Origin: Saccharothrix sp.
GTDB taxonomy: Bacteria; Actinomycetota; Actinomycetes; Mycobacteriales; Pseudonocardiaceae
DNA: 64,000 nt
Assembly (NCBI RefSeq): GCF_031180885.1
Contig: NZ_JAPSLK010000002.1
Coordinates: forward strand, 62,001 to 126,000
Direction: 5' to 3'
Shown: positions 19,292 to 46,682 of the stretch, one piece after another
How the letters are laid out: the number at the start of each line of letters is the position of its first letter
Numbering within the stretch: position 1 is the first letter of the stretch
Program-made: the position numbers and the translations under genes
The notes under the pieces: generated by a model
What the model saw: the letters and a program-made list of their open reading frames with translations, nothing else
Told to the model about the DNA's origin: nothing
The model's database searches: none

Positions 19292-19409
19292 CGGCCGGCC
19301 GCAGCGGCTCCACCGGTTGGTTCCACACCTTTTTCGCGAGTGGCTGAATGCTGCTCGCGAATAGCCGATGAATCGGCACGCCCGAATGCGCCACTATTGG
19401 GAGGCTTTG

Positions 19410-22400
19410 GTGTACCCGGATCCGGCTGTCCGGACCACGCCCGCGCTGCCGTTGCAGCGGGGAATGATCGCCGCCGGTCTGCGCGACCCGGCCGCGGGCA
19501 CGGACGTGATCCAGTGCGTGCAGCGGTTCGCCGCGCCGTTCGACGCGGAGGCGTACCTCGCGGCGTGGCGCAGGGCGGTCGAACGGCACCCGATCCTGCG
19601 GACGCGGTTCCGCTGGCGCGCCGACGGGGAGGCCGAGCAATGGGCCGGCCCCGCGTCCGACGTGCCCGTGGTGGCCGACGACTCGGTCAGCGATGTCTCG
19701 GCGTTCCTGGCCGCGGACCGGCGTGCGGGGGTCGACCCGGTGGCGGGGCCGCCGTTGCGGGTGCGGGCGTTGCCGGGTGGGGTCGTGGTGGCGACGTTCC
19801 ACCACGCGATCCTCGACGGCCGGTCGCTCGCGATCCTGCTCTCCGAGATCGACGACGACTACGCCTCCGGCGGCACGGCGGTCTTCCCGGACCGGCCCGA
19901 GTTCGCCGAGTACGCCCGCTGGTACGCCGAGCGCACCGCGCCCGAGCACCCCCTGGCCGTCCGGGACCGCGAGTTCTGGGCGCGGGAGCTGGCCGGGATG
20001 CCCGAGCCGGGGCTGCTCCCGTTGGAGCACAACGGTTCCGCGACACCGGTGATGGGCGTCGCGACCGCCGACCTGTCCGACGCGGAGACCGCCGCCGTGC
20101 GCAACCTGGCCGCCGTCGCAGGCGTCACGGTGAACACGGTCGTGCTCGCGGCGTGGGGTCTGGTGCTGGCCACGCACGCCCGCAGCAGCGAGGCCGTGTT
20201 CGGGGTGACCCGGGCGGCGCGGCACGGTTCCGTGGCCGGCGCGGAGGACATGGTCGGGCTGCTGCTGGCCACCGTGCCGCTGCGGCTGCCGGTCGACCTC
20301 GACGCGCCGGTGGCGCAGTGGCTGCGGACCGTGCGGGAGCGGTCGGTCGGCGCGCGGGACCACCAGCTCGCGCCGCTGCCGGACATCCAGCGCGCCGCCG
20401 GGCACGACCAGCTCATGCGCAGCCTGGTGCTGTTCGAGCACCGCGAGATCAACACCGTGTTGTCCGCGCGGCCCACCGCGCCCGCCGGGCGGACGGTGCG
20501 CATCCTGCGCAGCCCCGGTTACGCGATGACGTTGTACGCGTTCGCCGAGCCGCACCTGAGCCTGCAACTGATCCACGACGTCACCCGGTTCCCCGACTGG
20601 GCGCCGGAGGCGCTGCTCGGGCAGTTCCGGGAGCTGCTGGCCGGGATGGCCGAGGCGCCGGAGCGCCCGGTGCGCGAGCTGACCGAGCCGCGTGGCGCGG
20701 ACCTGGTGCGGCTGCTGGAGAAGTGGAACGACACGGCCGTGGACTACCCGGCGGACGCGACCGTTCCGGCGCTGTTCGCCGAGCAGGTGCGGCTGCGGCC
20801 GGACGCCGACGCCGTCCACTCCCCCGAGGGCTGGCTGTCCTACGCCGAGCTGGACCGGCGGTCGAACCGGTTGGCGCACACCCTGCTGGCGCGGGGGGCG
20901 AAGGCTGACGAGCCGGTGGGCTTGGCGTTGCCGCGCGGGGCGGACCTGGTGACCGCGATGCTCGCCGTGGTGAAGACGGGCGCGGCCTACCTGCCGCTGG
21001 ACCCGGCCAACCCGGCGGCGCGGGACGCGGTGGCGTTGCGCGAGTCCGGGACGCGGCTGGTGGTGACCGATCGGGAACGTCCGTTGCCGGAAGGTGTTTC
21101 GGCGGTCCTGGTGTCCTCAGTGGACGGTCCGGACACGCCGGTGCCGGCTCGGGCGCACGCGTTGAGCGTGGCGTACGTGAACTACACGTCCGGTTCGACC
21201 GGGCGGCCCAAGGGTGTGGCGGTGCCGCACCGGGGGGTCGTGCGGCTGGTGACGCGGCCGACGTTCGCGGAGTTCGGGCCGGGGCAGACGTTCCTGCACC
21301 TGTCGGCGACGGCGTTCGACCTGACCACGCTGGAGGTATGGGGCGCGCTGCTGACCGGCGGCCGGGTCGTCGCCGCGCCCGAGGGGCCGCCGGACCCGGC
21401 GGTGCTGGGTGCGCTGGTGCGCGAGCACGGGGTGAGCGTGCTGTGGCTGACCGCCGGGCTGTTCCACCAGTTGGTGGCGCACGCGCCCGAGGTGCTGGAG
21501 CCGGTGGCGCAGTTGCTGGCCGGTGGTGACGTCCTGGCGCCGGACGCGGTGCGGGCGGCGCTGGTCGCGCGGGGCGGCAAGCCGGTGGTCAACGGGTACG
21601 GGCCGACCGAGAACACCACGTTCACGTCGTGTTTCGTGGTCACCGATCCTCGGCAGGTCGGGGCGTCGGTGCCGATCGGGACGCCGGTTCAGCGCAGCAC
21701 GGTGTACGTGTTGGACGAGCGGATGCGGCCGGTGCCGGTGGGCGTGCCGGGTGAGTTGTACACCGGGGGCGCGGGGTTGGCGCGGGGTTACTGGGCGAAC
21801 CCGGCGCTGACGGCGGAGAAGTTCGTGCCGGACCCGTTCGGCGCGCCGGGCGGGCGGCTGTACCGGACGGGCGACCTGGCGCGGTGGCGGCCGGACGGGG
21901 TGCTGGAGTTCCTCGGGCGGGCGGACCAGCAGGTGAAGGTGCGCGGGTTCCTGGTGGAGCCGGCGGAGGTGGAAAGCGTTCTCCGGGAGTGCGCCGGGGT
22001 CGCTGAGGCTCTGGTCCTGCCGGCCGGCGAGGGTGAGGCCCGGCACTTGGTGGCTTATGTGACCGGTGCGGTGGACGTCCCCGCCATGCGCCGCCACGTC
22101 GAGGACCGCCTGCCTGCGTACCTGTGTCCCGCGCAGTACGTCGTGCTGCCCGAACTCCCCCTGAACCGCAGCGGGAAGGTCGACCGAGCGGCCCTCCGTG
22201 CGCTCCGAACCTCAGGCCAGCGCTCCGGCACCCCGCCTGCCGCCGGCACTCAGCAGCGCCTGGCGGGGTTGTGGGGGGCGCTGTTGGGTGCCGATGAGGT
22301 GTGCGCGGAGGACGACTTCTTCGCTGTTGGCGGCAACTCCCTGCTCGCGGTGAGGCTGGCTTTCCGCATCCGCGAGGAGTTCGGCGTGGACGTCCCCGTG

Positions 22401-25400
22401 GCCGAACTCCACCGGGCGAGGACTCTTGCCGCGTGCGCGGCGGTGGTCGACGGCACCCGCAACGCGCGAACTCTCACCACCATCACCCGCCGCGACCGCT
22501 CCACCTACCGCGTCCCCGCCCCGCGCACACCCGAGAATGTCGGTGGTCCGCGGGACAATGAGCCCCAGGGGCGCTCGGAGCAGGATTGTCGTACCCCCGT
22601 GGGACAATGGAACCGGGGGCCGGAGGCCACGCCCAAGCAAGAGGTGGCACCCGAGCAGAGGATGGCGCCCGAGCAGAGGGTGGCGCCCGAGCAAGAGGTG
22701 GCACCCAGCCAACACGCGGCACCCACTCAACTGGCGGTGCCCGCTCAACAGTCGGCGCCGGCCTCGCCCCGGCAAGCGCCCAACCAACACGCCCCGCTGG
22801 CGCCCACGCAGGTGCCCGCCCAAAAGGCACCGCCCACCGAGCCCGCGCCGGCGCCCACACAAACGCCGGCCCAACCCGCCGCGTCAACCGCACCCGCGCA
22901 AGCCGCCCAAGCCGCCGCGCCGACCGCACCGACCGCACCGACCGCACCGACCGCACCGACCGCACCGACCGCACCGACCGCACCGACCGCACCGACCGCA
23001 CCCAACCAGCACGCCGCGCCGACCACACCCACCCAGGCACCCAACCAGCACGCCGCGCCGACCGCACCCACCCAAGCGCCTGCCCGGCCCACCACACCGA
23101 GCCGGCTCAGCGCGCCCGCCGATCATCTCGTCGTCCCCAGCGGCACCGGCGAGTGGGCCGTCTGGCGGTGGGTTGAGTTGCGGGGTACGGGGTTCGGCAT
23201 CGAGCCCCTGTTGGCCGTCGCCTCACCGGAAGCCGCACGAGCCGCCGACGCGGTGATCGCGGCCGAGGACGTCGTCGGGGAAGCCCGATGGGCGGCGTTC
23301 AAGGTGTTGCGGGTGGTGGAGGACGCTGCCGAAGGGGAGGAAAGGACCAGGCTCAGGCGAGTCGGAAGGCTGGTGCGCAAGGGGCGGTTCGCGGAGGCTC
23401 GGGCCGCGTTGGACGGGGCGGCTGAAGTCGATGCGGCGTTGGCTGAGGCCGCGCAGGCCGCCGCACGCCACGAAGTGGCGTTGCAACGGTTCAGGGAGGA
23501 GTTCGAGGCAGGGCGGGCGCGGACCGCTGAGGTGCTGCACGAGATCAGCGGGGACGCGAAGTTCCGGGAAGCGGTTGCCTGGCAGAACCCCCGCGCCCTC
23601 CAGACCGCCGTCGACGCCCTCCACAAGTCCCGCGACAAGACCCGCAACGTCGACTACCGCCGCTGGGAACACACCGTCGTCAGCTACCTCCAACGGTACT
23701 GCGCGAAGAACGACACCATCGGCTTCTTCGGCCCCGTCGGCTGGGCCTACGTCCGTGACGACGCCCGGGAAACGCTTTCCGCCCGCCCCGGACCGAACCT
23801 GGTCGACCGCCGCACGGTCTACCTCGAGAACTGGGCCGTCCACGAACTCGCCGAAGCCCTCACCACCGACGCCGTCCGCCCGTGGGCCGTCCCCCGCCGA
23901 ATGCCGTTCCTCGACATCGACCACGACACCCTCCACGTGCCACTGGCCGACCCCATCACCCTGCCGCCACTGGACGCCGCCGTGCTCGCCGCGTGCGACG
24001 GCCGCCGCCGGGCCGTGGACATCGTCGAACACCTCAAGGCAGACAAGCGCACCGTCCTGGACACGCTCGAACGGCTGAGGCAAGCCAAGCGGATCGCGTG
24101 GACGCTGGAAGTTCCGCCGTCCGCACTGGTCCCGGAACTGGCCCTGCGCAAGCAGATCGAGCGCATCGACGACGAAGAAGTGCGCCACCGAACGAGTGAA
24201 AAGCTCGCAAGCATCGAGCAAGCCCGGGACGCGATCAAGAACGCCACGAACGACCCGGACCGGCTCGTCGCAGCGATCGGCGACCTCCAGGAGAGGTTCA
24301 CCGCCATCACCGGCGCGGAGGCGGTGCGTCGGCCGGGCCTGTTCTACGCGGGCCGCACGCTGGTGCACGAGGAATGTCGAAGGGATCTGGAGGTCACGCT
24401 CTCCCCCGCCCTCCTCGACACCCTGTGGCCGGCCCTCGAACTCGTCCTCGAAGCCGCCCGGTGGTTCACGTACGCGGGCGCGGCCCTCTACACCCGCGCA
24501 CTCCGCGAGGTCTTCCAGCACAACGCCCGCGGCCGGAAGGAAGTCCGGCTCGCCGACTTCTGGTTGTGGGCCAACGACACCATCTTCCGGATGGACGACC
24601 GGCTCCTGGACCGCCTGGTCACCGCACTCCAGAACCGGTGGGCCACCGCCCTCGGCGACACGAAGACCCACTACGACCCCGACGAAGTCCGGGAAGCAGT
24701 GCTGAAAACGTTTTCCGCACCCCGACCCGGGTGGCGCGGCGCGGTGCAGCACAGCCCGGACGTGCTGCTCGCCGCGAAGGACGCGGACGCCGTCCGACAA
24801 GGCGACTTCCACTGGGTGCTCGGCGAGGTCCACCCCGGCGTCAACACCATGCGGTCGGCGCTGTTCGTCTCCCAGCACCCCGACCCGGAGCAACTGCGCC
24901 AGGCGATGGCGCACGACATGGCCAGCCCGCGCGTGGTCCTCACCACGACCCGCGAGCAGGGCGGCACACCGCAACGCCTCGCCGACGCCCTCGTGCTCCC
25001 GCACGACCTGCGGATCGTGTTCGGGCACGACTCGTGCGGCCCGGACGTGGACGGCGCGGTGCCCGTCGGGGCGTGCTCGGTGGTCGACGTGGACGGCCGG
25101 CTGCGGGTGCGCAGCCGGGACGGCCGGGTCGACCTCAGCCTCGTCGAGCTGTTGAACGAGCAGATCATGGCGCAGCTCGTGCAGAAGTTCCGGCTGCTGC
25201 CCACGGGCGCGCACACCCCGCGGGTGACCCTCGACCGCCTGGTGGTGGCGCGGGAGAGCTGGCGGTTGCCGGCCGCCGCGACCAGGTTCGCGTTCGCCCC
25301 GGACGAGCCGAGCCGGTTCCTGGGCGCGCAGGCGTGGCGGCGGGAGCACGGCATCCCCCGGTTCGTGTTCGTCAAGAGCCCGGTGGAGCACAAGCCGTTC

Positions 25401-25616
25401 TACGCGGACCTGGAGAGCGGTCCGTCGGTGGAGCTGTTCGCGCACGCGGTGCGCGCTTTGGAGCGGGAGAAGCCGGACGCGCCCATGGCGGTCGGCGAGA
25501 TGTTGCCGGGGCCGGACGCGTTGTGGCTGACCGACGCCGAGGGCAACCGGCACACCGCGGAGTTCCGGCTGGTCGCCGTCGACCGCCGGGGTTGGCACCA
25601 GGGAGGAACGCGGTGA
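19410..25616 (+). CDS. NRPS C-A-PCP module fused to a LanB-type lantibiotic dehydratase domain
   Basis: About 2068 residues, start chosen at the GTG with GGGAGG five bases upstream (an ATG at 19368 is possible). Order: condensation domain (HHAILDG at 131-137), adenylation domain (TSGSTGRPKG near 593, GYGPTEN near 727, YRTGDL), carrier protein (GGNSL, phosphopantetheine Ser977), a Pro/Ala/Gln/Thr linker of about 200 residues, then from about 1240 a complete lantibiotic dehydratase N-terminal (glutamylation-type) region with KNDTIGFFGPVGW at 1433 and a closing VGEMLPGPDALWLTDAEG. The SpaB_C elimination domain is absent. My reading of the adenylation pocket is DLLWLGGTF(K), aliphatic/Val-like rather than Ser or Thr. 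LanB domains use aminoacyl-tRNA; here the target may be the carrier-bound residue. It overlaps the next NRPS gene by four bases. Confidence 0.9.
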   Translation: MYPDPAVRTTPALPLQRGMIAAGLRDPAAGTDVIQCVQRFAAPFDAEAYLAAWRRAVERHPILRTRFRWRADGEAEQWAGPASDVPVVADDSVSDVSAFLAADRRAGVDPVAGPPLRVRALPGGVVVATFHHAILDGRSLAILLSEIDDDYASGGTAVFPDRPEFAEYARWYAERTAPEHPLAVRDREFWARELAGMPEPGLLPLEHNGSATPVMGVATADLSDAETAAVRNLAAVAGVTVNTVVLAAWGLVLATHARSSEAVFGVTRAARHGSVAGAEDMVGLLLATVPLRLPVDLDAPVAQWLRTVRERSVGARDHQLAPLPDIQRAAGHDQLMRSLVLFEHREINTVLSARPTAPAGRTVRILRSPGYAMTLYAFAEPHLSLQLIHDVTRFPDWAPEALLGQFRELLAGMAEAPERPVRELTEPRGADLVRLLEKWNDTAVDYPADATVPALFAEQVRLRPDADAVHSPEGWLSYAELDRRSNRLAHTLLARGAKADEPVGLALPRGADLVTAMLAVVKTGAAYLPLDPANPAARDAVALRESGTRLVVTDRERPLPEGVSAVLVSSVDGPDTPVPARAHALSVAYVNYTSGSTGRPKGVAVPHRGVVRLVTRPTFAEFGPGQTFLHLSATAFDLTTLEVWGALLTGGRVVAAPEGPPDPAVLGALVREHGVSVLWLTAGLFHQLVAHAPEVLEPVAQLLAGGDVLAPDAVRAALVARGGKPVVNGYGPTENTTFTSCFVVTDPRQVGASVPIGTPVQRSTVYVLDERMRPVPVGVPGELYTGGAGLARGYWANPALTAEKFVPDPFGAPGGRLYRTGDLARWRPDGVLEFLGRADQQVKVRGFLVEPAEVESVLRECAGVAEALVLPAGEGEARHLVAYVTGAVDVPAMRRHVEDRLPAYLCPAQYVVLPELPLNRSGKVDRAALRALRTSGQRSGTPPAAGTQQRLAGLWGALLGADEVCAEDDFFAVGGNSLLAVRLAFRIREEFGVDVPVAELHRARTLAACAAVVDGTRNARTLTTITRRDRSTYRVPAPRTPENVGGPRDNEPQGRSEQDCRTPVGQWNRGPEATPKQEVAPEQRMAPEQRVAPEQEVAPSQHAAPTQLAVPAQQSAPASPRQAPNQHAPLAPTQVPAQKAPPTEPAPAPTQTPAQPAASTAPAQAAQAAAPTAPTAPTAPTAPTAPTAPTAPTAPTAPNQHAAPTTPTQAPNQHAAPTAPTQAPARPTTPSRLSAPADHLVVPSGTGEWAVWRWVELRGTGFGIEPLLAVASPEAARAADAVIAAEDVVGEARWAAFKVLRVVEDAAEGEERTRLRRVGRLVRKGRFAEARAALDGAAEVDAALAEAAQAAARHEVALQRFREEFEAGRARTAEVLHEISGDAKFREAVAWQNPRALQTAVDALHKSRDKTRNVDYRRWEHTVVSYLQRYCAKNDTIGFFGPVGWAYVRDDARETLSARPGPNLVDRRTVYLENWAVHELAEALTTDAVRPWAVPRRMPFLDIDHDTLHVPLADPITLPPLDAAVLAACDGRRRAVDIVEHLKADKRTVLDTLERLRQAKRIAWTLEVPPSALVPELALRKQIERIDDEEVRHRTSEKLASIEQARDAIKNATNDPDRLVAAIGDLQERFTAITGAEAVRRPGLFYAGRTLVHEECRRDLEVTLSPALLDTLWPALELVLEAARWFTYAGAALYTRALREVFQHNARGRKEVRLADFWLWANDTIFRMDDRLLDRLVTALQNRWATALGDTKTHYDPDEVREAVLKTFSAPRPGWRGAVQHSPDVLLAAKDADAVRQGDFHWVLGEVHPGVNTMRSALFVSQHPDPEQLRQAMAHDMASPRVVLTTTREQGGTPQRLADALVLPHDLRIVFGHDSCGPDVDGAVPVGACSVVDVDGRLRVRSRDGRVDLSLVELLNEQIMAQLVQKFRLLPTGAHTPRVTLDRLVVARESWRLPAAATRFAFAPDEPSRFLGAQAWRREHGIPRFVFVKSPVEHKPFYADLESGPSVELFAHAVRALEREKPDAPMAVGEMLPGPDALWLTDAEGNRHTAEFRLVAVDRRGWHQGGTR
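22913..23000 (+). repeat. 9-bp tandem repeat encoding (Ala-Pro-Thr)n
   Basis: About nine near-perfect copies of ACCGCACCG encode an Ala-Pro-Thr array in the linker between carrier protein and LanB domain. Such stretches are prone to slippage, so copy number may vary between strains or be mis-assembled. Confidence 0.9.
23001..23078 (+). repeat. Two 39-bp tandem copies in the NRPS1 linker
   Basis: Units 23001-23039 and 23040-23078 differ at only three or four positions and encode an APNQHAAPT-type 13-residue repeat. Upstream (about 22620-22720) a looser APEQ(R/E)VAP repeat occurs. All keep frame, as expected for a flexible spacer under selection for length rather than sequence. Confidence 0.85.
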
Positions 25617-28600
25617 GCACGGTGACCCCCGAACTGTTCCGGTTCCCCGCCTCGTCGGGGCAACGCCGGCTGTGGCTGCTGGACCAGCTCATGCCGGCCA
25701 GCCCGGTCTACAACATCGGCTGGCGCGTGGCGCTCGACGGGCCGCTGGACGTCAACGCGCTGCACAACGCGCTCAACGCGGTCGTCGCCCGGCACGAGGC
25801 GCTGCGGACCCGGTTCGCCGACGAGGACGGTGTCCCCGTGCAGGTCGTGTCCGAGTCGCAGGCCGTGCCGCTGTCAAGGCTCGAAACCGACGACGTGGAC
25901 GCCACGGTGAAAAGCCTGGTGCGCGAGCCGTTCGACCTGCACACCGGGCCGTTGCTGCGCGCGACCCTGGTCAACCGCGAAGTCCTGGTCCTGGTGCTGC
26001 ACCACAGCATCGCCGACGGCTGGTCGTGCGCGGTGCTGTTCGACGAGCTGGCGCGCTGCTACGCCGGGGACACCGACCTGCCCGAGCTGCCCGTCCAGTA
26101 CCCGGACTACGCGCTGTGGCAACAGGAACAGGTCGACGCCGGCGCGTTCGCCGACGACGCCCGGTACTGGTCGGAAGCCCTGCGCGGCGCGCCGACCGTC
26201 CTCCCGCTGCCCGGCGACCGCCCCCGCCCGGACACCCCCACCGGGCGGGGCGCGGAGCTCCGCCGGGAGCTGACCGTGGCCGACGGCTCGTTCGCGCACC
26301 TGCTCGCGCTGTTCCAGTGCGTGCTGCACCGGGTCACCGGCCAGAGCGACCTCCTCGTCGCCACCCCGGTCGCCGCGCGCACCCGACCGGAGACCGAGGG
26401 CCTGGTCGGGTTCGTCGCCAACACCCTGCCGCTGCGGGCCACCTTCGAGCCGGACACGACCCTGCGTGACGTCGTGCGGGCCGCCGAGGCGGCGACCGTG
26501 GCCGCGCTGGAGCACCAGGACCTGCCGTTCGAGCAGGTCGTGGACCTGGTCGCGCCCGAACGGACCCTGGCCCACGCGCCCCTGGTGCAGGTGATGTTCG
26601 CGGTCGAACCCCTGCCGCCGGCCCGGAAAGCGGGTGAGCTGACCCTGCGCCCGGAGCCGGTGTCCAACGGTGGCGCGAAGTTCGACCTCTCGCTGACCGT
26701 GGAGCGCGACGGGGACACCTGGTTCGGCCGCTGGCAGTACGACGCCGAACTGTTCGACGAACCCACCATCGCCGCACTGCACAACGCTTTCGCCGCCCTC
26801 ACCGGCGGCACCGACCCCACAACCAAAGTCACCGAACTCCCTCTCACCACCACTCCGACCCCGCAAACCCCTTTCAAGCCAACGGAAACCGCACTCGACC
26901 TCATCACCCGAGCCCTCGCCGCCCACCCGGACGCGATGGTCGAAACCCTGACCCACCGGGAACTCGACCGCGCCGCCAACCGCCTCGCCCACGCCCTGAA
27001 GGCGGCGGGCGCGCGACCGGACGACCCGGTGGCGCTGTGCCTCGACCGCGGCGAACCCACGATCACCGGCATCCTCGCGGCGTGGAAGGTCGGCGCGGGC
27101 TATCTGCCGCTCGACCCGTCGTGGCCCGTCGAACGCCTGACCACCATGGCGTTGGACGCGGGGATCACGGTGCTGGTCACCGACTCGCCCGAGAAGGCCC
27201 TTGACGGGCCGTGGACCACGGTCGACCTGCATTCCGACGGACCCGACACCCCGCCGGACGCCGTACCGCCGATCCCGGAGAGCCTGGCCTACATCATCTA
27301 CACCTCCGGCTCCACCGGTAAGCCCAAGGGCGTCCGCGTCACGCAAGGCGGGTTGGCCGCGCTCGTCCGGACCATGGACCGGCTGCTGGACCTGTCCCCC
27401 GACGACCGCTTGGCCTCCATCAGCACGCCGGCGTTCGACGTCTCCACCGTGGAGATGCTGGTGCCTCTCATCAGAGGCGCCCGGTTCACCGCCGTGCCCG
27501 CCGCCGACGTGGCGGACGGGGCGCTGCTGCGGCGGCGGATCGCGGAATCCGGGGCCACGGTCGTGCAGGGCGGCCCGGCGAGTTGGCGGATGGTCGTTGC
27601 GGCGGGTGGTGTGCCCGACCACGTCCGGCTGCGGGTCACCGGCGGCGAAGTGCTCACCCGGGACCTCGCGGACGACCTCCAGTCCGGCGGGGCGACCCTC
27701 ATCGACGGCTACGGACCCACCGAGACCACGGTCTACTCGACGGCCGGCGTGGTGCCGCACGGCCCCGCGCCGGTCCGGCTCGGGCCGGCGGTCGACGGGA
27801 CGACCCTGCACGTGCTGGACCCTTTGCTGCGCCCGGTACTCCCCGGTGTGATCGGCGAGTTGTACATCGGTGGCGCGGGGGTCGCCCGCGGCTACCACGG
27901 CCTGCCGGCATTGACCGCCGACAAGTTCGTGCCCGACCCCTTCGGCGGAGACCGGCTTTACGCCACGGGCGACCTGGTCCGGCCGCGTGCTGACGGCTCG
28001 CTGGAGTTCCTGGGCCGTGCCGACCGTCAGGTCAAGATCCGCGGGTTCCGGATCGAGCCCGGCGAGGTCGAGGCCGTGCTGCGGGCGCACCCGGACGTGG
28101 CCGACGCGGTGGTCACCACGTGGTCGGCGGGCGCGGCGGACGTCCGGCTGGTCGCCCACGTCGTCCTGCACCGGCCGGTCGACGACCTGCGCCCGCACCT
28201 GGGAAAACGATTGCCCGAGTACATGGTCCCGGCCGCCATCGTGGAACTGGCCGCGTTGCCGCGCACCGGCACCGGCAAGATCGACCGGGTTGCGCTGCCC
28301 GAACCGTCGTGGACCGGCGCGGCCACCGAGCACGTGCCGCCGCGCGACGACACCGAGGCCCGGATCGCCCGGATCTGGCAGGACGTGCTGAGCATCCCGG
28401 GCAGCGTCGGCGTGCACGACAACTTCTTCGCGCTGGGCGGCCACTCCCTGACCGCCACCCAGATGCTGGCCCGGGTCCGCACGACCTTGGGCGCGGACCT
28501 GCCGCTGGCGGCCCTGTTCGCCGCGCCCACCATCGCGGGTCTGCGGTCGGCGCTGGACACCGCGAGCGCCGGCACCCGCGGCCCGGTGCCGCTGCTCGAC

Positions 28601-28669
28601 CAGCTCGACGACCTGTCCGACGAGGAGATCGACCGGTTGCTGGGGACGTTGAGCGAGGACGAGCTGTGA
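25613..28669 (+). CDS. NRPS module C-A-PCP
   Basis: 1018 residues; GTG start overlapping the previous stop (GTGA). The condensation domain carries a canonical HHSIADG at about 130. The adenylation domain has YTSGSTGKPKG, GYGPTETT, YATGDL and GTGKIDR. The carrier protein has GGHSL with Ser945. My pocket reading is DVVQVGGVY(K), which I cannot match to a known substrate; it shares the Q at the fourth position with the Gly-type module downstream. There is no epimerase or methyltransferase domain. It is the second module if colinear. Confidence 0.92.
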   Translation: MSTVTPELFRFPASSGQRRLWLLDQLMPASPVYNIGWRVALDGPLDVNALHNALNAVVARHEALRTRFADEDGVPVQVVSESQAVPLSRLETDDVDATVKSLVREPFDLHTGPLLRATLVNREVLVLVLHHSIADGWSCAVLFDELARCYAGDTDLPELPVQYPDYALWQQEQVDAGAFADDARYWSEALRGAPTVLPLPGDRPRPDTPTGRGAELRRELTVADGSFAHLLALFQCVLHRVTGQSDLLVATPVAARTRPETEGLVGFVANTLPLRATFEPDTTLRDVVRAAEAATVAALEHQDLPFEQVVDLVAPERTLAHAPLVQVMFAVEPLPPARKAGELTLRPEPVSNGGAKFDLSLTVERDGDTWFGRWQYDAELFDEPTIAALHNAFAALTGGTDPTTKVTELPLTTTPTPQTPFKPTETALDLITRALAAHPDAMVETLTHRELDRAANRLAHALKAAGARPDDPVALCLDRGEPTITGILAAWKVGAGYLPLDPSWPVERLTTMALDAGITVLVTDSPEKALDGPWTTVDLHSDGPDTPPDAVPPIPESLAYIIYTSGSTGKPKGVRVTQGGLAALVRTMDRLLDLSPDDRLASISTPAFDVSTVEMLVPLIRGARFTAVPAADVADGALLRRRIAESGATVVQGGPASWRMVVAAGGVPDHVRLRVTGGEVLTRDLADDLQSGGATLIDGYGPTETTVYSTAGVVPHGPAPVRLGPAVDGTTLHVLDPLLRPVLPGVIGELYIGGAGVARGYHGLPALTADKFVPDPFGGDRLYATGDLVRPRADGSLEFLGRADRQVKIRGFRIEPGEVEAVLRAHPDVADAVVTTWSAGAADVRLVAHVVLHRPVDDLRPHLGKRLPEYMVPAAIVELAALPRTGTGKIDRVALPEPSWTGAATEHVPPRDDTEARIARIWQDVLSIPGSVGVHDNFFALGGHSLTATQMLARVRTTLGADLPLAALFAAPTIAGLRSALDTASAGTRGPVPLLDQLDDLSDEEIDRLLGTLSEDEL

Positions 28670-30123
28670 GCCGCGCGGTGGTGGTGGGCGCGGGCCTGGC
28701 GGGCTCGCTGGTGTCGGTCTACCTGGCGCGGCGCGGGTTCGCGGTGCGGGTGCTGGAACGGCGGGAGGATCCGCGCACGCCCGGTGCGCGCGAGGCCGGG
28801 CGGTCGATCAACCTCGGCCTCTCCCAGCGCGGGATCGTGGCCCTGAAGGAGATCGGGATCCTCGACACGTTGAAGCCGCTGACCGTGCCGATGCGCGGTC
28901 GGGTGGTGCACGCGCCCGACGGGGCGTTGCGGTTCCAGCCCTACGGGACCGAAGAGGACCAGATCCTGCACTCCATCCTGCGCCACGACCTCAACGTGGC
29001 GTTGATCGACGAGGCCGAGAAGCAGGGCGTCGAGTTCTTCTGGGGCCACAAGGTCGTCGCCGTGGACCGCGAGAAGCCTTCCGTGGCAACGGAAACCGCC
29101 GAGTTCGACGCGGACCTGGTGGTGGGCGCGGACGGCGCGTTCTCCGCCGTGCGCACCCACCTCGGGAAGGGCCGCCGGATGACCCTGCACCAGGAGTACC
29201 TGGAGTGGGGTTACAAGGAGCTGCTGATCCCGGTCGGCGACGACGGCCGGCCGCGCACCGAGCTGCGGGCGCTGCACGTGTGGCCGGGGGACGACGGGCT
29301 GATCGTGGCCCACCCCAACGCGGACGGCTCGCTCACCGCCACGGTGTTCCTGCCGTTCGAAGGGGCGCAGGGCTTCGCCGGGCTGGACACGGCCGCGCGG
29401 GTGCGGGAGTTCTTCGCCCGCCGCTTCCCCGACACCCTGACCCTGATCCCGGACGTGGTGGAGCAGTTCCTGGCCCACCCGCCCGCGAGCCTGGTCACCA
29501 TCCGCACCGAGCCCTGGCACCTGGCCACCGGGTCCGGCCGCGGGGTGGTGCTGCTGGGCGACGCCGCGCACGCGGTGTACCCGTTCTTCGGCCAGGGCAT
29601 GAACGCCGCGTTCGAGGACTGCTCGGTCCTGGACCGCTGCCTGGCCGCCCACCCGCACGACCTCCCGAAGGCGTTGGCGGCCTTCGAGAACGCGCGCCGG
29701 CCGCACACCGACGTGCTGGCGGAGCTGTCCAAGCGCAACTTCGTGGAGCTGCGCGCCAAGCTGCGCTCGCCGCTGTTCCTGGCCCGCAAGAAGGCGGACC
29801 TGGTGCTGCACCGCCTGTTCCCGCGCTCCTGGGTGCCGCTCTACACCCTGATCGCGCACACGACCACGCCCTACGGCGAAGCCCTGGCCCGTGCCCAGCG
29901 CCAGGACCGCCTGTTGGCCCTTGTCACCGCGCTCACCGGCGCGGGCATGGTCGGACTCGCACTGCGTTGGATTGCGTCGCCTCCGGCGCCGCGGCGAGGC
30001 CGCCTGGAAGTCGGCTCGTCGCGCCGCCTGTCCCGCCGATCGAAGGGCGTGATCGTCGGGAAAGGCGACACGACAAGCCGACGCGGCCTCGCAGGAGTCC
30101 GCCGCAAGAGGCAGGTGAGATGA
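28666..30123 (+). CDS. Kynurenine 3-monooxygenase-type FAD hydroxylase
   Basis: 485 residues. GAGLAGSLVSVYLARRGF (FAD dinucleotide fold), EAGRSINLGLSQRG (the kynurenine monooxygenase signature), GADGAFSAVR and GDAAHAVYPFFGQGMNAAFEDC identify a class A flavoprotein that hydroxylates L-kynurenine at C3. The C-terminus carries hydrophobic stretches, then an unusual basic tail of about 45 residues. It sits inside the NRPS unit (GTGA and ATGA overlaps both sides). In pyrrolobenzodiazepine and actinomycin pathways this step makes 3-hydroxykynurenine for a peptide building block. No kynureninase or tryptophan dioxygenase is present in the window. Confidence 0.9.
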   Translation: MSRAVVVGAGLAGSLVSVYLARRGFAVRVLERREDPRTPGAREAGRSINLGLSQRGIVALKEIGILDTLKPLTVPMRGRVVHAPDGALRFQPYGTEEDQILHSILRHDLNVALIDEAEKQGVEFFWGHKVVAVDREKPSVATETAEFDADLVVGADGAFSAVRTHLGKGRRMTLHQEYLEWGYKELLIPVGDDGRPRTELRALHVWPGDDGLIVAHPNADGSLTATVFLPFEGAQGFAGLDTAARVREFFARRFPDTLTLIPDVVEQFLAHPPASLVTIRTEPWHLATGSGRGVVLLGDAAHAVYPFFGQGMNAAFEDCSVLDRCLAAHPHDLPKALAAFENARRPHTDVLAELSKRNFVELRAKLRSPLFLARKKADLVLHRLFPRSWVPLYTLIAHTTTPYGEALARAQRQDRLLALVTALTGAGMVGLALRWIASPPAPRRGRLEVGSSRRLSRRSKGVIVGKGDTTSRRGLAGVRRKRQVR

Positions 30124-30803
30124 TGCTGATCCACCCGAGCCGGCCGGCCCATCCCTTGGTCGAGCCGTCGGACTTCGCCGCCCCCGCACTCCCCGAGCAG
30201 GTCGCCGCCCACGAGGTCGCGCTGCGGACGGTGTTCGAATGGGCGGGTGACTACCTGTGCGCGCCGCACCCGGAGCTGGGCCGGCGCGGCGACGTGTGCC
30301 CGTTCACCGACACGTCCCTGCAGAAGGGCCTGTTCTTCCTGTCCGTGCACCCGGGCCGCCCGACCGAGCCCGCCGAACTCGCCGAACTGCTGCTGCACTA
30401 CCGCGACTGGTTCGCCGAGCTGGAACCGAGGTCCGGGCCGGGCGCGCAGTTCAAGACGATCCTGGTGCTGTTCCCGGAGCTGCGCGATCCCGCCGACTGG
30501 TCCATCGTGGACCGGACCCAGGAACTGCTCAAACCCGAGTACACCGCCAACGGCCTGATGGTCGGCGAGTTCCACCCCGGCCCGCCGGACAAGGCCGGCC
30601 TGTGGAACCCGCTGTTCCGGCCGCTGAGCAGCCCCGTGCCGATGCTGGCCATCCGGCACATGGTGCCCACCGACTTCCCGTTCCTGCGGGACGACGACGT
30701 GACCCTCACCGCGTACCTGGAGCGTTTCGGCGACCGGGTCCCCACGCACCTGCGCGGCGACGTCCGCGCCGCCGCCGACCGACTCGCCACGTCCGGGAGC
30801 TGA
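30120..30803 (+). CDS. Unrecognised NRPS-cluster protein (possibly DUF6875-like)
   Basis: 227 residues, soluble, start ATGATG overlapping the monooxygenase stop. Conserved-looking blocks include GDVCPFTDTSLQKGLFFLSV, FKTILVLFPEL, IVDRTQELLKPEYTANGLMVGEFHPG and AIRHMVPTDFPFL. I recall similar proteins annotated as a domain of unknown function beside NRPS genes but cannot verify this. The strict coupling between monooxygenase and NRPS3 implies a role in making or handling the modified residue. It has no cofactor motif I recognise. Confidence 0.75.
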   Translation: MMLIHPSRPAHPLVEPSDFAAPALPEQVAAHEVALRTVFEWAGDYLCAPHPELGRRGDVCPFTDTSLQKGLFFLSVHPGRPTEPAELAELLLHYRDWFAELEPRSGPGAQFKTILVLFPELRDPADWSIVDRTQELLKPEYTANGLMVGEFHPGPPDKAGLWNPLFRPLSSPVPMLAIRHMVPTDFPFLRDDDVTLTAYLERFGDRVPTHLRGDVRAAADRLATSGS

Positions 30804-30805
30804 CC

Positions 30806-34008
<3,203 letters not shown>

Positions 34009-34012
<4 letters not shown>

Positions 34013-35313
34013 AGCGGTTCGCCGTGGTCTGGGCCGGTCAGCTGGTCAGCGTGATCGGCTCGGCGCTGACCGCGTTCGTGCTGGGCGTGTGGGTGTACCT
34101 GGGCACCGGCTCGGTGACCCAGTTCGTGCTGATCCAGTTCTGCGCGGTGGTGCCGGGCATCCTGCTCGCGCCCTACGCGGGCGCGGTGGCCGACCGGTAC
34201 GACCGGCGCAAGATCATGCTGGCCGCCGACACCGGCGCGGGCGTGGTGACCGCGTTGCTGCTGGTCTCGGTGAGCACGGATTCCCTCGCGGTGTGGCAGG
34301 TCTACGTGGCGTCGGCGCTGACCGCGACGCTGAACTCGTTCCACCTCATCGCCTACCAGGCCCTGGTGCCCGCGCTCGTGCCGGCCGAGCACCTGGGTCG
34401 GGTCAACGGCCTGATGCAGCTCACCCAGGGCGTGCAGATCGCCGCGCCGCTGGTCGCGGGTGCGCTGCTCGGCCTGGTCGGACTGCGCGGCGTGCTGGTC
34501 ATCGACGTGGTGTCGATGGTCTTCGCGGTCGCCGCGCTGCTGCTGGCCCGGCTCCCCGCGGGCGCGAGCGGGAGCCGGGGCAGCGGTGCCCAGGGGTTGG
34601 GGGCGGGCCTGCGGTGGCTGCGCGGCGCGCCCGGCCTGTTCGTGCTGTGCGCGGTGTTCGGGGTGTGGAACTTCCTGTTCGCCGTGGCGGGTGGGCTGGT
34701 GCAGCCGCTGATCCTGTCGTTCTCCTCGCCGGCCACGCTGGGCTTGCTGATGGCGGCGGGCGGCAGTGGGCTGTTCGTCGGCGGGCTGGTGATGGGCGCG
34801 TGGGGCGGGCCGAAGCGGCGGGTGCTGGGCATCTACGCCGGGCTGGGGCTGGGCGGGGTGTTCCTCGTCCTGCACAGCCTCGCGCCCTCGCCGTGGCTGA
34901 TCGCGGTGGCCGCGCCCGCGTTCCTGTTCACGTTGCCGCTGATGAACACGTGCTGCGTGACGTTGTTGCAGACCAAGGTGGACAAGGACGTGCTGGGCCG
35001 GGTGCTCGGCGTGGTGCGGGCGCTGTCCACGGCCGCGATGCCGGTGGCCTACCTGGTGATCGGTCCGCTGTCCGACGGCGTGGCCGAGCCGCTGATGGCG
35101 CCCGACGGGGCGCTGGCGTCCTCGCTGGGTGCGCTGATCGGCACCGGTGAGGGCCGCGGCATCGCCCTGATCTTCCTCGTGGTCGGCGTGCTGATGCTGG
35201 CGCTGACCGCGTTCGCGTGGTCGCGGCCCCGGCTGCGGACCGTGGACGACCTGCCCGACGCGGCCACCGCCACCCCAGAAGAGCAGCCGGACCCGGAGAG
35301 GACGCACTCGTGA
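34009..35313 (+). CDS. MFS exporter of the NRPS cluster
   Basis: 434 residues with about 12 helices; GTG start overlapping NRPS3 by four bases. Loop 2-3 reads GAVADRYDRRKIMLAAD, a good MFS motif A, and RVNGLMQLTQGVQIAAPLVAG follows in helix 5. The position between two NRPS genes, coupled at both ends, points to export of or self-resistance to the peptide product. Confidence 0.9.
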
Positions 35314-38300
35314 CCGAACTGTCCGACCACCGCGAGCGGCTGCTGGAGCGCCTGCTCGCCCAGCGCGGCCTGGGGGGCCGCCAGAGCGTGCCGCGCCGGC
35401 CGGAGGGCGCGGTCGTCCCGCTGACCGGCAACCAGCGCGGCCTGTGGCTGACCGGTCGGCTCGGGCTGGACTCGGGCGCGTACGCCATGTTCTTCGCGGT
35501 GCGGGTGGCCGGTGAGGTCGACCCAGAGCGGTTGCGGCGGGCTGTGGACGTGGTCGTGGCCCGGCACGAGGCCCTGCGCACCCGGATCGTGGACGACGAG
35601 GGCACGCCCGCGCAGCAGGTGCTGCCGTCGCTGTCGGTGCCGGTGGTGGTGACCGACCTCGACGGGTCGCTGGAAGACCTGGTGGTGTCCGAAGTGGACA
35701 CCCCGTTCGACCTGGAGGAAGGGCCGCTGGTGCGGGTCCGGTTGATCCGGGTCGGCCCCGGGTCGTCGGCCGTGGTCGTGACCGCGCACCACATCGTGTG
35801 CGACGACGTGTCGCTGGGCGTGGTGGCGCAGGAGATCGGCAACGCCTACGCGGGCGTCGCGCTGGCGCCGGTCGGGGCGCAGTTCCCGGACTACGCGCAC
35901 TGGCAGTCCGGGCGGCTCGCGGACGGCGAGCGGCAGCGCCAGCTCGACCACTGGGCGGACCGCCTCGCCGGCGCGCCCGACGTGCTGGACCTGGCGGCGG
36001 ACCGGCCGCGCACCCCGAACCGGACCGTCGCCGGCGGCAGCCACCGGTTCGTCGTGCCCGCCGCGCTGGCCGGTCGGTTGGCCGAGCTGACCCGGGCGCA
36101 CGGGTGCACCACGTTCGCCGGGCTGCTGGCGGCGTTCTCCCTGGTGCTGTCCCGCCGGTCCGGCGCCGACGACCTCGTGATCGGCTCGCCGACCACGCAC
36201 CGGCCGTTCCCCGAGCTGGAGCGGTCGGTGGGCATGTTCGTCACCACGACCGCGCTGCGCATGGACCTGTCCGGCGACCCGACCGTGGCCGAGCTGCTCA
36301 AGCGGGCCAAGGCCGTCGCGATCGACGCGCTGGACCACGCCGAGGTCAGCTTCGACGAGGTGGCCGCGCGGGTCGCGCCCCGCCGGGACCTCGCGCACCA
36401 CCCGTTGTTCCAGGTCATGCTGGTGCTCAACCGGGGCAGTGGCGCCGGGCGCTGGGGCGGGCTGCCCGCCGAGCCGCTGACCGCGGACCGGGGCACGAGC
36501 CGGTTCGACCTGACCCTGCACGTGCGGGAGACCGACGGGGACTGGCCCGCGAACCTCGACTACAGCACGGACCTGTTCGAGCCGGACACGGTGGCCCGGT
36601 TCGCCGAGCAACTGCTGACGGTGCTGGAGTCGTGGACCGCCGAGAGCCGGCTGTCGACCGTCGAGTGGACCACGGAGTCGGACCGGGTCGCCGCGGAACT
36701 GCTCAACGCCCAGCCCGCGCCGGACAGCCCCGACGTGCTGGCCGGGATCGCCGAGCAGGTCCACGCCCATCCGGACACCACGGCCGTGCTGGAGGTCGGC
36801 GGCTCGTCGCTGACCTTCGCGCAGCTGGACCGGCGGGCGAACAAGGTCGCGCACGTCCTGGCGGACCTCGGGGTCGGGCCGGAGGTGCCGGTGGGGCTCG
36901 CGCTCAAGGCCGGGGCGGACGCGTTCGTGGCGCTGCTGGCGATCCTCAAGGCCGGTGGCGCGTACGTGCCGCTCGACCCGGCGCACCCGCCCGCCCGGCT
37001 CGCCGGCCTGCTCGCGGACTGCGGCGCGCCCGTGGTGATCACCGCGCCGGGCACGCGGGACCGGTTCGGCGAGTTCCACGGGGCCCTGTTGGACACCGCG
37101 GACGAGGCGTTCACCGGCGAGGCCGCGGCGGCGCCGGTCTTCGACGCGCACCCCGGTCGGCTGGCGTACGTGATCTACACGTCCGGGTCGACGGGAGTGC
37201 CCAAGGGCGTGCAGGTCCAGCACGACACGCTGGCCAACCTCGCGCGGGCGTTCGTCGAGCTGCACGACTTCGGGCCGGGGCAACGCATCCTGATGGTGCC
37301 GCCGTTGAGCTTCGACGCCTCGGTGGGTGACGTGTTCCCGGCGTGGTGCGCGGGCGCGGCGGTGGCCGTGCACCCCGAGCCCGCCGCGATCGGCGGCCCG
37401 GACCTGCTGCGACTGTGCGCCGAGCACGGGCTGACCGCCGTGGACGCCCCGGCCGCGCTGTGGAAGCGGTGGGTGGCCGACCTGGCGGGCGTGACCGACA
37501 CCGCGAGCCCGTTGCGGGTCATGATGATCGGTGGCGAGGCCGTGCCGCCGGCGACGGTCGCCGAGTGGGCGGCCGCCACCGGGGTGTCGCTGGTCAACCA
37601 CTACGGGCCGACCGAGACCACGGTGTGCGCGACCGCGTACCGGACGCTGGACGCCGCCGAGGTCGACCCCCGTTCGGCCACGCTGCCCATCGGCCGGCCG
37701 TTGACCGGTGTCCGCGCGTACGTGCTGGACGCCGACCTGCGCCCGGTCGCCGTGGGTGTCCCCGGACAGCTCTACATCGGCGGCCGTGCCCCCGCCCGGG
37801 GTTACCGGGGCGACCCGGCGCGCACGGCCTCGGCGTACCTGCCGGACCCGTCCGTGCCGGGCGGACGGGTGTACGCGACCGGCGACCTGGCGCGGCTGCT
37901 GCCCGACGGGACGCTGGAGTTCCTGGGCCGGGTGGACGACCAGGTCAAGCTGCGCGGGCACCGGATCGAGCCGGGCGAGGTGCGGGCGGCGCTGCTCAAG
38001 CACCCGAAGCTGGTCGAGGCGGCCGTGGCGGTCCGGTCGGACACCCTGGTGGCGTACGTGGTGCCGCGCGCCGGCGAGACCGCGCCGGAACTGGACGAGC
38101 TGCGGGCGTTCTGCGCCGAACACCTGCCCGAGGCCATGCTGCCCGGCGCCCGGGTGGTGCTGGACGAACTCCCGTTGACCGCGCACGGCAAGGTGGACGG
38201 GCGGAAGCTGCCCGAGCCGGTGGTGGACGCCAAGCCGTACGAGCCCCCGCGCACGGCCGTCGAGCGGGTGCTGGCGGAGATCTGGTCGGAGGTGCTCAAC

Positions 38301-39671
38301 GCGCCCCTGGTCGGCCGGCACGACTCGTTCTTCGGCCTGGGCGGGCATTCGCTGATCGCGGCGGCCGTGCTGGCGAAGGTCCGGTCGCTGCTGGGTGTGA
38401 CCGTGCCCCTGCGCGCCCTGTTCGCCACCGCCGACCTGGCCGAGTTGGCCGAGGTGGTGGAGAGCGCGGCGGCGTCCGACCACACCTTCGCCAAGCGCTA
38501 CCAGTCGGGCCTGCCCACCGTCGAGCAGATGTGGGTGGACGCCACACCACCCGACGACGTGGTCCCCGCCGGTGTCACCGTGTCCGGACCGCCCCAACGG
38601 GTCCTGCTCACCGGCGCGACCGGCTTCCTGGGCGCGCACCTGCTGGCCGAGCTGCTGGCCCGGACCGATGCCGAAGTCCACTGCCTGGTCCGCGCGGAGA
38701 CTCCGGCGGTCGCGTCCGCCCGCGTCCGCGCCAACCTCCGGCGAGCACACCTCGACGTGCCGGAGGACGCGCTGGCCCGGGTCCTCCCGGTGGTCGGTGA
38801 CATGTCGAAACCCATGCTCGGCCTGACGAACCACGAGTTCGACGCGCTGGCCGAGAGCATGGACGCCGTCTACCACAACGGCGCGGTGATGAACTTCGTG
38901 CTGACCTACCAGTGGATGATGCCGCCGCACGTCGGCAGCACGGTCGACGTCCTGCGCCTGGCGACCCGCTACCGCACCAAGCCGTTGCACCTGATGTCCA
39001 CGCTGGGCGTGTTCCTGGGCGCTTCCTACGACCAGCAGGTGGTCAAGGAGACCGACCGACCGGAGGACCCGGCCGGGCTGGACACCGGCTACCACACCAC
39101 CAAGTGGGTCGCCGACATGATGGGCGTGCTGGCGCGCGACCGCGGGGTCCCGGTGTCGATCCACCGCATCGCCGCCATCGTCGGCGACGTCCGGACCGGC
39201 ACCGCGAAGACCGAGTCGTACCTGAGCCGCCAGATCGCCACCTGCGCCCACACCGGTGCCGTGCCCCGCACCGAGGACGTCATCGACATGCTGCCGGTGG
39301 ACCGCCTGGCCGCCGCCATCGCCGGCATCTCGCTGCGCCCCGAGCACGCCGGCAAGGACTTCCACTACTACCGGGCCGACGGTTTCCGCTACGCCGACCT
39401 GGGCGACGTCCTCAACGCCAAGGGCTACCCCACCGAGGTCCTGGACTACCAGGCGTGGCGGGCGCTCATGCTGGACAGCCCGGACAGCGCGTTCGGCCCG
39501 CTGGCGTTCGGCCTGACCACCACCCGCCGCGCCCACCCCGTGTTCGACTGCTCGGCCACGTGGGCGGCGGCGGCCGAGTGCGGCGTGGAGTTCCCCCCGG
39601 CCGACGCCGAGATGATCGGCCGCCACATCGACTTCCTGGCCACCGCTGGCGTCCTGCCGGAAAGGTCCTGA
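35310..39671 (+). CDS. Terminal NRPS module C-A-PCP with thioester reductase
   Basis: 1453 residues, GTG overlapping the exporter stop. The condensation motif is HHIVCDD (Gly replaced by Asp). The adenylation domain has YTSGSTGVPKG, HYGPTETT and YATGDL; my pocket reading is DAGDMGHVC(K), whose acidic fourth residue recalls Arg/Lys-type codes. The carrier has GGHSL with Ser1014. From about 1095 an extended short-chain-dehydrogenase domain follows: LLTGATGFLGAHLL binds NADPH, and Tyr1261-Lys1265 (YHTTK) is catalytic. Such reductase domains release the chain as an aldehyde or alcohol instead of an acid. With no thioesterase in the cluster this should be the exit module. Confidence 0.93.
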   Translation: MTELSDHRERLLERLLAQRGLGGRQSVPRRPEGAVVPLTGNQRGLWLTGRLGLDSGAYAMFFAVRVAGEVDPERLRRAVDVVVARHEALRTRIVDDEGTPAQQVLPSLSVPVVVTDLDGSLEDLVVSEVDTPFDLEEGPLVRVRLIRVGPGSSAVVVTAHHIVCDDVSLGVVAQEIGNAYAGVALAPVGAQFPDYAHWQSGRLADGERQRQLDHWADRLAGAPDVLDLAADRPRTPNRTVAGGSHRFVVPAALAGRLAELTRAHGCTTFAGLLAAFSLVLSRRSGADDLVIGSPTTHRPFPELERSVGMFVTTTALRMDLSGDPTVAELLKRAKAVAIDALDHAEVSFDEVAARVAPRRDLAHHPLFQVMLVLNRGSGAGRWGGLPAEPLTADRGTSRFDLTLHVRETDGDWPANLDYSTDLFEPDTVARFAEQLLTVLESWTAESRLSTVEWTTESDRVAAELLNAQPAPDSPDVLAGIAEQVHAHPDTTAVLEVGGSSLTFAQLDRRANKVAHVLADLGVGPEVPVGLALKAGADAFVALLAILKAGGAYVPLDPAHPPARLAGLLADCGAPVVITAPGTRDRFGEFHGALLDTADEAFTGEAAAAPVFDAHPGRLAYVIYTSGSTGVPKGVQVQHDTLANLARAFVELHDFGPGQRILMVPPLSFDASVGDVFPAWCAGAAVAVHPEPAAIGGPDLLRLCAEHGLTAVDAPAALWKRWVADLAGVTDTASPLRVMMIGGEAVPPATVAEWAAATGVSLVNHYGPTETTVCATAYRTLDAAEVDPRSATLPIGRPLTGVRAYVLDADLRPVAVGVPGQLYIGGRAPARGYRGDPARTASAYLPDPSVPGGRVYATGDLARLLPDGTLEFLGRVDDQVKLRGHRIEPGEVRAALLKHPKLVEAAVAVRSDTLVAYVVPRAGETAPELDELRAFCAEHLPEAMLPGARVVLDELPLTAHGKVDGRKLPEPVVDAKPYEPPRTAVERVLAEIWSEVLNAPLVGRHDSFFGLGGHSLIAAAVLAKVRSLLGVTVPLRALFATADLAELAEVVESAAASDHTFAKRYQSGLPTVEQMWVDATPPDDVVPAGVTVSGPPQRVLLTGATGFLGAHLLAELLARTDAEVHCLVRAETPAVASARVRANLRRAHLDVPEDALARVLPVVGDMSKPMLGLTNHEFDALAESMDAVYHNGAVMNFVLTYQWMMPPHVGSTVDVLRLATRYRTKPLHLMSTLGVFLGASYDQQVVKETDRPEDPAGLDTGYHTTKWVADMMGVLARDRGVPVSIHRIAAIVGDVRTGTAKTESYLSRQIATCAHTGAVPRTEDVIDMLPVDRLAAAIAGISLRPEHAGKDFHYYRADGFRYADLGDVLNAKGYPTEVLDYQAWRALMLDSPDSAFGPLAFGLTTTRRAHPVFDCSATWAAAAECGVEFPPADAEMIGRHIDFLATAGVLPERS

Positions 39672-46676: not shown

Positions 46677-46682
46677 GTCCGG

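Follow-up and report, generated by a model that had tools for sequence, protein, structure and literature searches.

An NRPS module of Saccharothrix is fused to a LanB-related domain with PEARL-type active-site residues

Analysis of a 64,000-nucleotide window (the whole stretch of DNA analysed, to which all positions refer) from the soil bacterium Saccharothrix sp. identified a single gene in which an NRPS module is joined to a C-terminal domain related to the lantibiotic dehydratases (LanB). The fusion is conserved, its C-terminal domain carries PEARL-type residues, and no elimination partner is encoded nearby. We consider it probable that this domain is not a dehydratase but a PEARL-type ligase, an amide-forming enzyme dependent on ATP and aminoacyl-tRNA, which is tethered to the carrier T1 and would extend a free carboxylate of the module 1 intermediate.

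The gene and its neighbours are listed in Table 1; they form a conserved four-module NRPS cluster with a reductase at its end. The fusion frame has no internal stop, and its ATG lies 42 bases 5' of the GTG at 19410. Pfam places Condensation at residues 23–439, AMP-binding at 470–809, AMP-binding_C at 867–937 and PP-binding at 963–1025, so the C-A-T module is complete. Lant_dehydr_N (PF04738) matches two stretches, the best being residues 1396–1854 (E 6.4e-22; score 77.9 bits, cut-off 28). The motifs KNDTIGFFG and EMLPGPDALWL begin at residues 1447 and 2044, respectively. The initial annotation, which proposed an uninterrupted NRPS-LanB frame of this kind, is confirmed on this point, and tRNA-dependent chemistry beside a carrier is, as it suggested, a natural reading of an architecture held on one polypeptide. 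It also described a full-length LanB N-terminal region: the N-terminal, glutamylation-like part is present, but “full-length” is imprecise, as the Pfam search found no PF14028 in the fusion protein.

Table 1. Features of the fusion gene and the surrounding NRPS cluster.
Feature	Position in window	Strand	Basis
MbtH-like protein, 70 aa	19079..19291	+	PF03621, E 2.1e-20
NRPS-PEARL fusion gene, C-A-T-linker-PEARL-like domain, 2082 aa	19368..25616	+	ORF calling and Pfam
C1 condensation domain, motif FHHAILDGRS	19434..20684	+	Pfam and motif
A1 adenylation domain, AMP-binding and C-terminal part; nine-letter code DLLWLGGTF	20775..22178	+	Pfam and code
T1 carrier domain, core DDFFAVGGNSLL	22254..22442	+	Pfam
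Linker, Ala/Pro/Thr/Gln-rich	22455..23120	+	Sequence inspection
PEARL-like (LanB glutamylation-related) domain	23121..25613	+	Candidate ATP-site residues
NRPS module 2, C-A-T	25613..28669	+	Domain search
FAD monooxygenase	28666..30123	+	Top NCBIfam model VioC, under its cut-off
DUF6875 protein (domain limits)	30225..30755	+	Domain search
NRPS module 3, C-A-T	30806..34012	+	Domain search
Open frame with MFS transporter; true start probably further in	33664..35313	+	Domain search
Open frame, NRPS module 4, C-A-T-R, terminal reductase-type domain (NAD_binding_4)	35217..39671	+	Domain search
O-methyltransferase	39673..40674	+	Domain search

A survey of genomes for the same architecture found the domain in 17 of 25 Saccharothrix genomes, our own included, the 16 others at 69–85% identity. 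A stop-free fusion frame of 1889–2142 amino acids is present in 16 of the 17. In the remaining genome (G010) the interruption falls between A and T rather than in the linker, with the carrier and the LanB-like domain still in one frame. The 16 open frames, from relatives rather than reads, give no sign of a linker break at 22600–23100, and an assembly artefact was rejected because of them. Six further Saccharothrix genomes hold only relatives at 31–39% identity, and two have no domain match at E 1e-20. Beyond the genus, the fusion occurs in three other named genera and two MAGs, which rules out a strain-specific event, and core cluster genes are found in Actinophytocola, Salinispora and Micromonospora. 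Gene order is kept in all 16 other fused Saccharothrix regions and, for the cluster genes present in the sequence at hand, in the three other genera; an MbtH-like gene lies upstream of the fusion in 14 of 17 fused loci.

A tree of 96 related domains groups the 18 fused ones in a single clade; the other 78 lie in frames that were not scored as fusions, which is the commoner form. Long stop-to-stop frames of weaker relatives, such as those of 1396 aa (G239), 1654 aa (G063) and 1975 and 1811 aa (G512), are likewise left out of the fusion count. The linker, which here is expanded by tandem repeats of 9, 18 and 39 bases and has an RRDR motif near its start, varies among the fused proteins and is 24–55 residues long in 16 of the 18. 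Both the predominance of frames not counted as fused and the variable linker would suit a PEARL-type ligase that works in trans, on an intermediate further along the pathway or already released, with fusion serving stoichiometry or recruitment only; for SnaE, a PEARL-like enzyme of another NRPS cluster, it was left undecided whether carrier-bound or free molecules are the substrate (PMC11212132). We think this unlikely, though it deserves weight: the fused members are attached to the carrier of a module whose A code is aliphatic in all 16 readable cases among the 18, and an R-R/Q-D/E/S-R motif follows T in 18 of 18 (identified by eye).

A1, the adenylation domain of the module fused to the PEARL-like domain, looks Val/Leu-like; its nine-letter code reads as Val-like. 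A residue of this type would offer no hydroxyl for dehydration. Among the codes of the cluster's four A domains there is no resemblance to those for Ser or Thr, as far as such codes predict specificity; A2 and A4 could be assigned to no residue. In the 17 fused genomes, no PF14028 elimination domain was found near the fusion gene or in the NRPS cluster. It occurs on the same contig in nine of them, the nearest at 234.8 kb (G012), and on other contigs only in seven, where contig ends limit the distance; one fused genome (G008) has no PF14028 anywhere. Adjacent lanthipeptide genes were rejected as a partner, being of LanM type and lying next to the NRPS cluster in only one of six relatives checked.

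The candidate ATP-site residues of the domain are D547, E569, H571, R711, F750, K758, E814 and R816 (numbered from 23121). Across all 96 related domains R21, R192, R412, D547, E569, H571, R711, F750, E814 and R816 are invariant and Y189 is present in 95, the constancy of Y189 and R192 being partly by construction since both lie within a search pattern used to collect the domains; position 758 is K or R, and Y409 is Y in 65. The domain has dN/dS of about 0.24, against 0.17–0.18 for C-A-T (two species pairs). This purifying selection and the invariant active site leave hardly any credence for a degenerate domain with a structural rather than catalytic role, for which the partial Pfam match is the one point in favour.

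Six true LanBs from Saccharothrix provide a comparison, in which five of the six are similar to each other and the PEARL/LanB alignment is distant. All six keep the tRNA-site residues Y189 and R192. D547 is replaced by H in five; E569 by P in five and S in one; H571 by R in five and T in one; R711 by P in six; and R816 by A or V in six. E814 is non-discriminating, being E in all six, and R711 and F750, together with K758, are kept in two of three other PF04738 proteins of the genome analysed here. The residues that separate the 96 PEARL-like domains from these LanBs are D547, E569, H571 and R816. A phmmer search of the domain against solved structures gave a best E of 0.97, and an NCBIfam search assigned it to no family. 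The sole convincing solved relative is 6ec7, a lantibiotic dehydratase domain protein (E 1.9e-8) which we take to be TbtB; in its alignment R711 and F750 are also kept.

The domain thus resembles the class I LanBs (NisB, MibB, TbtB) in PF04738 homology and in the tRNA-site Tyr and Arg, and differs from them at D547, E569, H571 and R816, in having no PF14028 partner and in its predicted substrate, which has no hydroxyl. The dehydratase label of the initial annotation would imply true LanB chemistry, in which Glu-tRNA glutamylates a carrier-bound hydroxyl residue and elimination gives a dehydro residue. The PF04738 match above cut-off and the shared tRNA site fit it; the PEARL-type residues, the lack of a nearby elimination domain and the four A codes make it very unlikely. 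On these three grounds dehydration on the carrier was rejected, and neither the dehydratase identity nor the use of Glu-tRNA could be upheld.

The PEARL-type ligase that we favour can be set beside known systems. Published ATP-site and tRNA-site residues of BhaBCTrp include R34, Y205, R208, Y426, R429, D558, E575, H577, R715, F755, K763, E813 and R815; those of our domain match these in order and in smoothly drifting spacing, and agree in order and roughly in spacing with TglB and AmmB as well, on published residue numbers rather than a direct alignment. The PEARLs TglB, BhaBC and AmmB, as described, extend ribosomal scaffold peptides, whereas the substrate here is probably nonribosomal (PMC11962472, PMC12945691, PMC12550832). 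An NRPS setting is shared by SnaE. This enzyme, described as PEARL-like, is encoded in the NRPS-PKS cluster for threopeptin (sna) in Stackebrandtia nassauensis and is proposed to form an amide on a small nonribosomal substrate from aminoacyl-tRNA (PMC11212132). By its description it is likewise annotated as a lantibiotic dehydratase, encoded with an NRPS and of PEARL type, but it is a separate gene acting after ureido chain reversal by Curea (PMC11212132). Our domain, by contrast, is part of a C-A-T protein, the cluster has no Curea, and release is predicted to be reductive. The initial annotation's mention of LanB-like enzymes linked to dehydro-residues in a nonribosomal peptide corresponds to real literature, which as far as described concerns amide-forming PEARL-like enzymes and not dehydration (PMC11212132). 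In Micromonospora wenchangensis (L085), A-T-Curea-A-T is joined to a domain of the same clade, for which PF04738 falls short of E 0.001 and a profile built in this analysis gives 762 bits; judged by its domains, this is the logic of SnaA and SnaE on one chain. Livipeptin biosynthesis in Streptomyces lividans 66 similarly combines a tRNA-utilising enzyme with an NRPS ending in a reductase domain; as described, that enzyme belongs with the leucyl/phenylalanyl transferases, is separately encoded and is not LanB-related, and its NRPS has no C domain, unlike the C-A-T here (PMC10548850). A publication of 2024 already refers to fusions with thiolation domains; the type of fusion is therefore already known, and the present form is a variant.

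In the mechanism that we propose, A1 would load an aliphatic (Val-like) residue on T1, and C1 would add a cap in which one carboxylate stays free. By analogy with PEARLs and SnaE, the PEARL domain would phosphorylate this carboxylate with ATP, the amine of an aminoacyl-tRNA would attack, and the tRNA would then be hydrolysed off. Module 2 would take the chain over, and the module 4 reductase would release an aldehyde or alcohol. With C1 working forward and the PEARL domain ligating, a single module would extend the chain in both directions. Action in cis on T1 would follow only from the tethering. Among the points against our preferred explanation, reductive release leaves no C-terminal acid as a PEARL substrate, and the signature EHHxxHDG of ureido-forming C domains, as used in the SnaE pathway, is missing from C1 and indeed from all four C domains (FHHAILDG, LHHSIADG, LHHITSDA and AHHIVCDD); C1 as a ureido former was rejected on this ground.

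Alternatively, the PEARL domain might make an acyl-aminoacyl-tRNA whose ester feeds C1 directly, tRNA replacing a carrier protein as donor. In fused loci with upstream DNA there is no extra C, A or T match upstream of the fused gene (except in L085, which has its own A-T before C), and a C1-type domain also adjoins stand-alone PEARLs in L064, L086 and L089. Known PEARLs, however, are described as hydrolysing the tRNA off, and C1-like domains (33–37% identity) occur in long open frames (1567–6914 aa) of six genomes of the class that lie outside the 12 with a PEARL-like match in a parallel search, few candidates being scored per genome in both. With that limit, the six genomes also weaken the idea that C1-type domains are exclusive to PEARLs. 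We regard the tRNA-donor route as highly improbable.

Extending the favoured ligase mechanism, we tentatively suggest, at less than even confidence, that this is a bidirectional NRPS module, growing forward by condensation and backward by a ligase fed in cis by aminoacyl-tRNA, without ureido chain reversal. C1 would install a non-ureido carboxylate cap, and the cluster's product would represent nonribosomal peptide aldehydes of a new, tRNA-derived class.

For this PEARL-like family the label “lantibiotic dehydratase” is misleading. Among the 78 loci of a single genome-contig scan, outside which SnaE, TglB and BhaB fall, the ureido signature is found in two, and in about 55 a C domain can be recognised within flanks extending up to 10 kb; searching for PEARL-NRPS clusters by the ureido signature alone would therefore probably overlook many of them. 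If our proposal is correct, one enzyme would combine activation of amino acids as aminoacyl-tRNA, as in ribosomal synthesis, with activation as thioesters. The fusion would then make it testable which intermediate the ligase meets, carrier-bound or free, a point left undecided for SnaE (PMC11212132).

Pfam places C, A and T domains and a PF04738 match inside one stop-free frame of 2082 aa, and the fusion of an NRPS module to a PEARL (peptide aminoacyl-tRNA ligase)-like domain is well supported. The linker, which is rich in Ala, Pro, Thr and Gln, has been expanded by tandem repeats in the window's fused protein; on a common measure across 18 fused proteins, its length is 24–55 aa in 16, 116 aa in L075 (a MAG locus) and 216 aa in the window's own. 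A short motif following the carrier, R-R/Q-D/E/S-R, was recognised by eye in all 18.

Features in the window and in locus L085
Feature	Position	Strand	Content
Fused gene	19368-25616	+	C1-A1-T1, linker, PEARL-like domain
Linker	residues 1030-1251 of fused protein		
PEARL-like domain	23121-25613	+	
DUF6875 gene	30225-30755		cluster member
LanM-type cluster	40671-46874	-	berberine-type FAD oxidase, ABC ATPase, DUF4135 + LANC_like synthetase
Candidate precursor	start 46874	-	63 aa, Cys-rich tail at end
L085 (Micromonospora wenchangensis)	L085:4763-12136		A-T-Curea-A-T-PEARL, single frame

The residues given for the PEARL BhaBCTrp in PMC11962472 (R34, Y205, R208, R429, D558, E575, R715, F755, E813 and R815) have in-order counterparts in R21, Y189, R192, R412, D547, E569, R711, F750, E814 and R816 of the domain, as do Y426, H577 and K763, from PMC12945691, in Y409, H571 and K758. 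Ten of these are invariant in all 96 related domains, the constancy of Y189 and R192 being partly by construction, since both lie inside a search pattern of the contig scan described below. Six LanBs of the genus, selected among PF14028 matches in frames >1000 aa (both Pfam domains were confirmed in one, L133), keep Y189 and R192 and share E814 with the PEARL-like domains; D547, E569, H571, R711, F750 and R816 are each replaced in five or six of them. Among the three other PF04738 proteins of the window's genome, R711, F750 and K758 are kept in two, as they are in the aligned solved chain 6ec7, R816 is matched in one, and D547, E569 and H571 in none. Discrimination therefore rests on D547, E569, H571 and R816. 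The region that the initial annotation assigned to a LanB dehydratase is, on this sequence comparison, well supported as a PEARL. Its middle part also gave weak profile matches to PqqC/D chains (E 0.069 and 0.18), which we take to look as if the peptide-binding fold of LanBs were retained.

PF14028, the elimination domain of LanBs, was found in 24 of 25 genus genomes. Nine of the 17 fused-gene genomes carry it on the same contig, the nearest 234.8 kb away, seven carry it on other contigs only, and none was found in the remaining one (G008).

The domain itself is present in 17 of the 25 genus genomes including the window's own, with 69–85% identity in the 16 others; six hold relatives at 31–39% identity only, and two gave no match. 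The frame bearing it is 1889–2142 aa long in 16 of the 17 holders. The order of module 2, monooxygenase, module 3, MFS and start of module 4 is kept in all 16 other regions, reductase and methyltransferase are present in all six extended regions, and an MbtH gene lies 5′ of the fused gene in 14 of 17 loci, being absent only from three cut by contig ends. The LanM-type cluster adjoins the NRPS cluster in one of six relatives examined.

Our contig scan retained the best 78 of 326 relatives as loci, a set thereby biased toward near relatives. Fused forms occur in eight Saccharothrix loci, Actinophytocola gossypii (L068), Salinispora pacifica CNR114 (L062), five loci of three Micromonospora genomes (L063, L071, L074, L076, L085) and two MAGs (L075, L083). 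The 5′ side is lost at contig ends in L063, L074 and L083, and the frame is broken in L060; Pfam confirmed C, A, T and PF04738 in L068, L062 and L076. L062, L063 and L068 have the monooxygenase, DUF6875 and modules 2 and 3 in common. The DUF6875 gene is kept across four genera. The 18 fused domains form one clade (support 0.995; FastTree, 96 domains, midpoint-rooted), consistent with a single fusion event within this sample.

Wider searches scored the first two to four candidates per genome, so that their counts are lower bounds: at least 52 of 297 family genomes, taken from a larger group, match the domain at E 1e-60 or better, and at least 12 of 394 class genomes hold a related domain at E 1e-50. 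Among the matches listed, identity of at least 59% is confined to 17 Saccharothrix genomes and to G447, whose frame is 1888 aa long, in the family, and a frame >1888 aa to the window's own genome in the class.

The A codes of modules 1–4 are DLLWLGGTF, DVVQVGGVY, DILQIGVVW and DAGDMGHVC, of which we take the first to be Val-like and the third Gly-like. A1, whose nearest solved A domain is linear gramicidin synthase A, has a Val- or Leu-like code in 16 of the 18 fused loci (it is cut in L074 and L083), so that T1 is expected to be without a hydroxyl or side-chain acid. C1, with PvdL as nearest solved relative, groups with C domains adjoining stand-alone PEARLs in L064, L086 and L089; among the matches listed in a search likewise scoring two to four candidates per genome, similar domains also lie in long open frames where the genome gave no PEARL-like match. 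The ureido signature EHHxxHDG is absent from all four C domains of the window's cluster and occurs in two of the 78 loci (L082, L085), about 55 of which hold a recognisable C domain in flanks of up to 10 kb, a figure made up of 49 counted loci and six that the count had left out. Both the substrate of the PEARL domain and a step in cis are matters that we infer.

L085 joins A-T-Curea-A-T to a domain of the fused clade, which corresponds to the SnaA and SnaE pair of the threopeptin pathway in a single chain; Pfam did not report PF04738 there. Just 5′ lie genes for an amino-acid kinase and for a semialdehyde dehydrogenase, which would fit a dedicated supply of a special amino acid to the PEARL-NRPS protein. 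A second recurrent arrangement clusters two PEARL-like genes with an adenylation gene in 11 loci of Streptomyces, Crossiella and Saccharothrix (L106, L107, L111, L113, L118, L119, L123, L126, L127, L128, L132), eight of them with C-domain genes too. In Pseudomonas (L122, L129, L130) a PEARL-like gene lies immediately 3′ of an NRPS gene.

According to PMC10548850, livipeptin pairs a different tRNA enzyme with an NRPS without a C domain. No publication on this cluster or a characterised fused enzyme was found among titles and abstract openings, a coverage mostly outside subscription journals. The fused NRPS-PEARL is a conserved variant within a kind defined recently.
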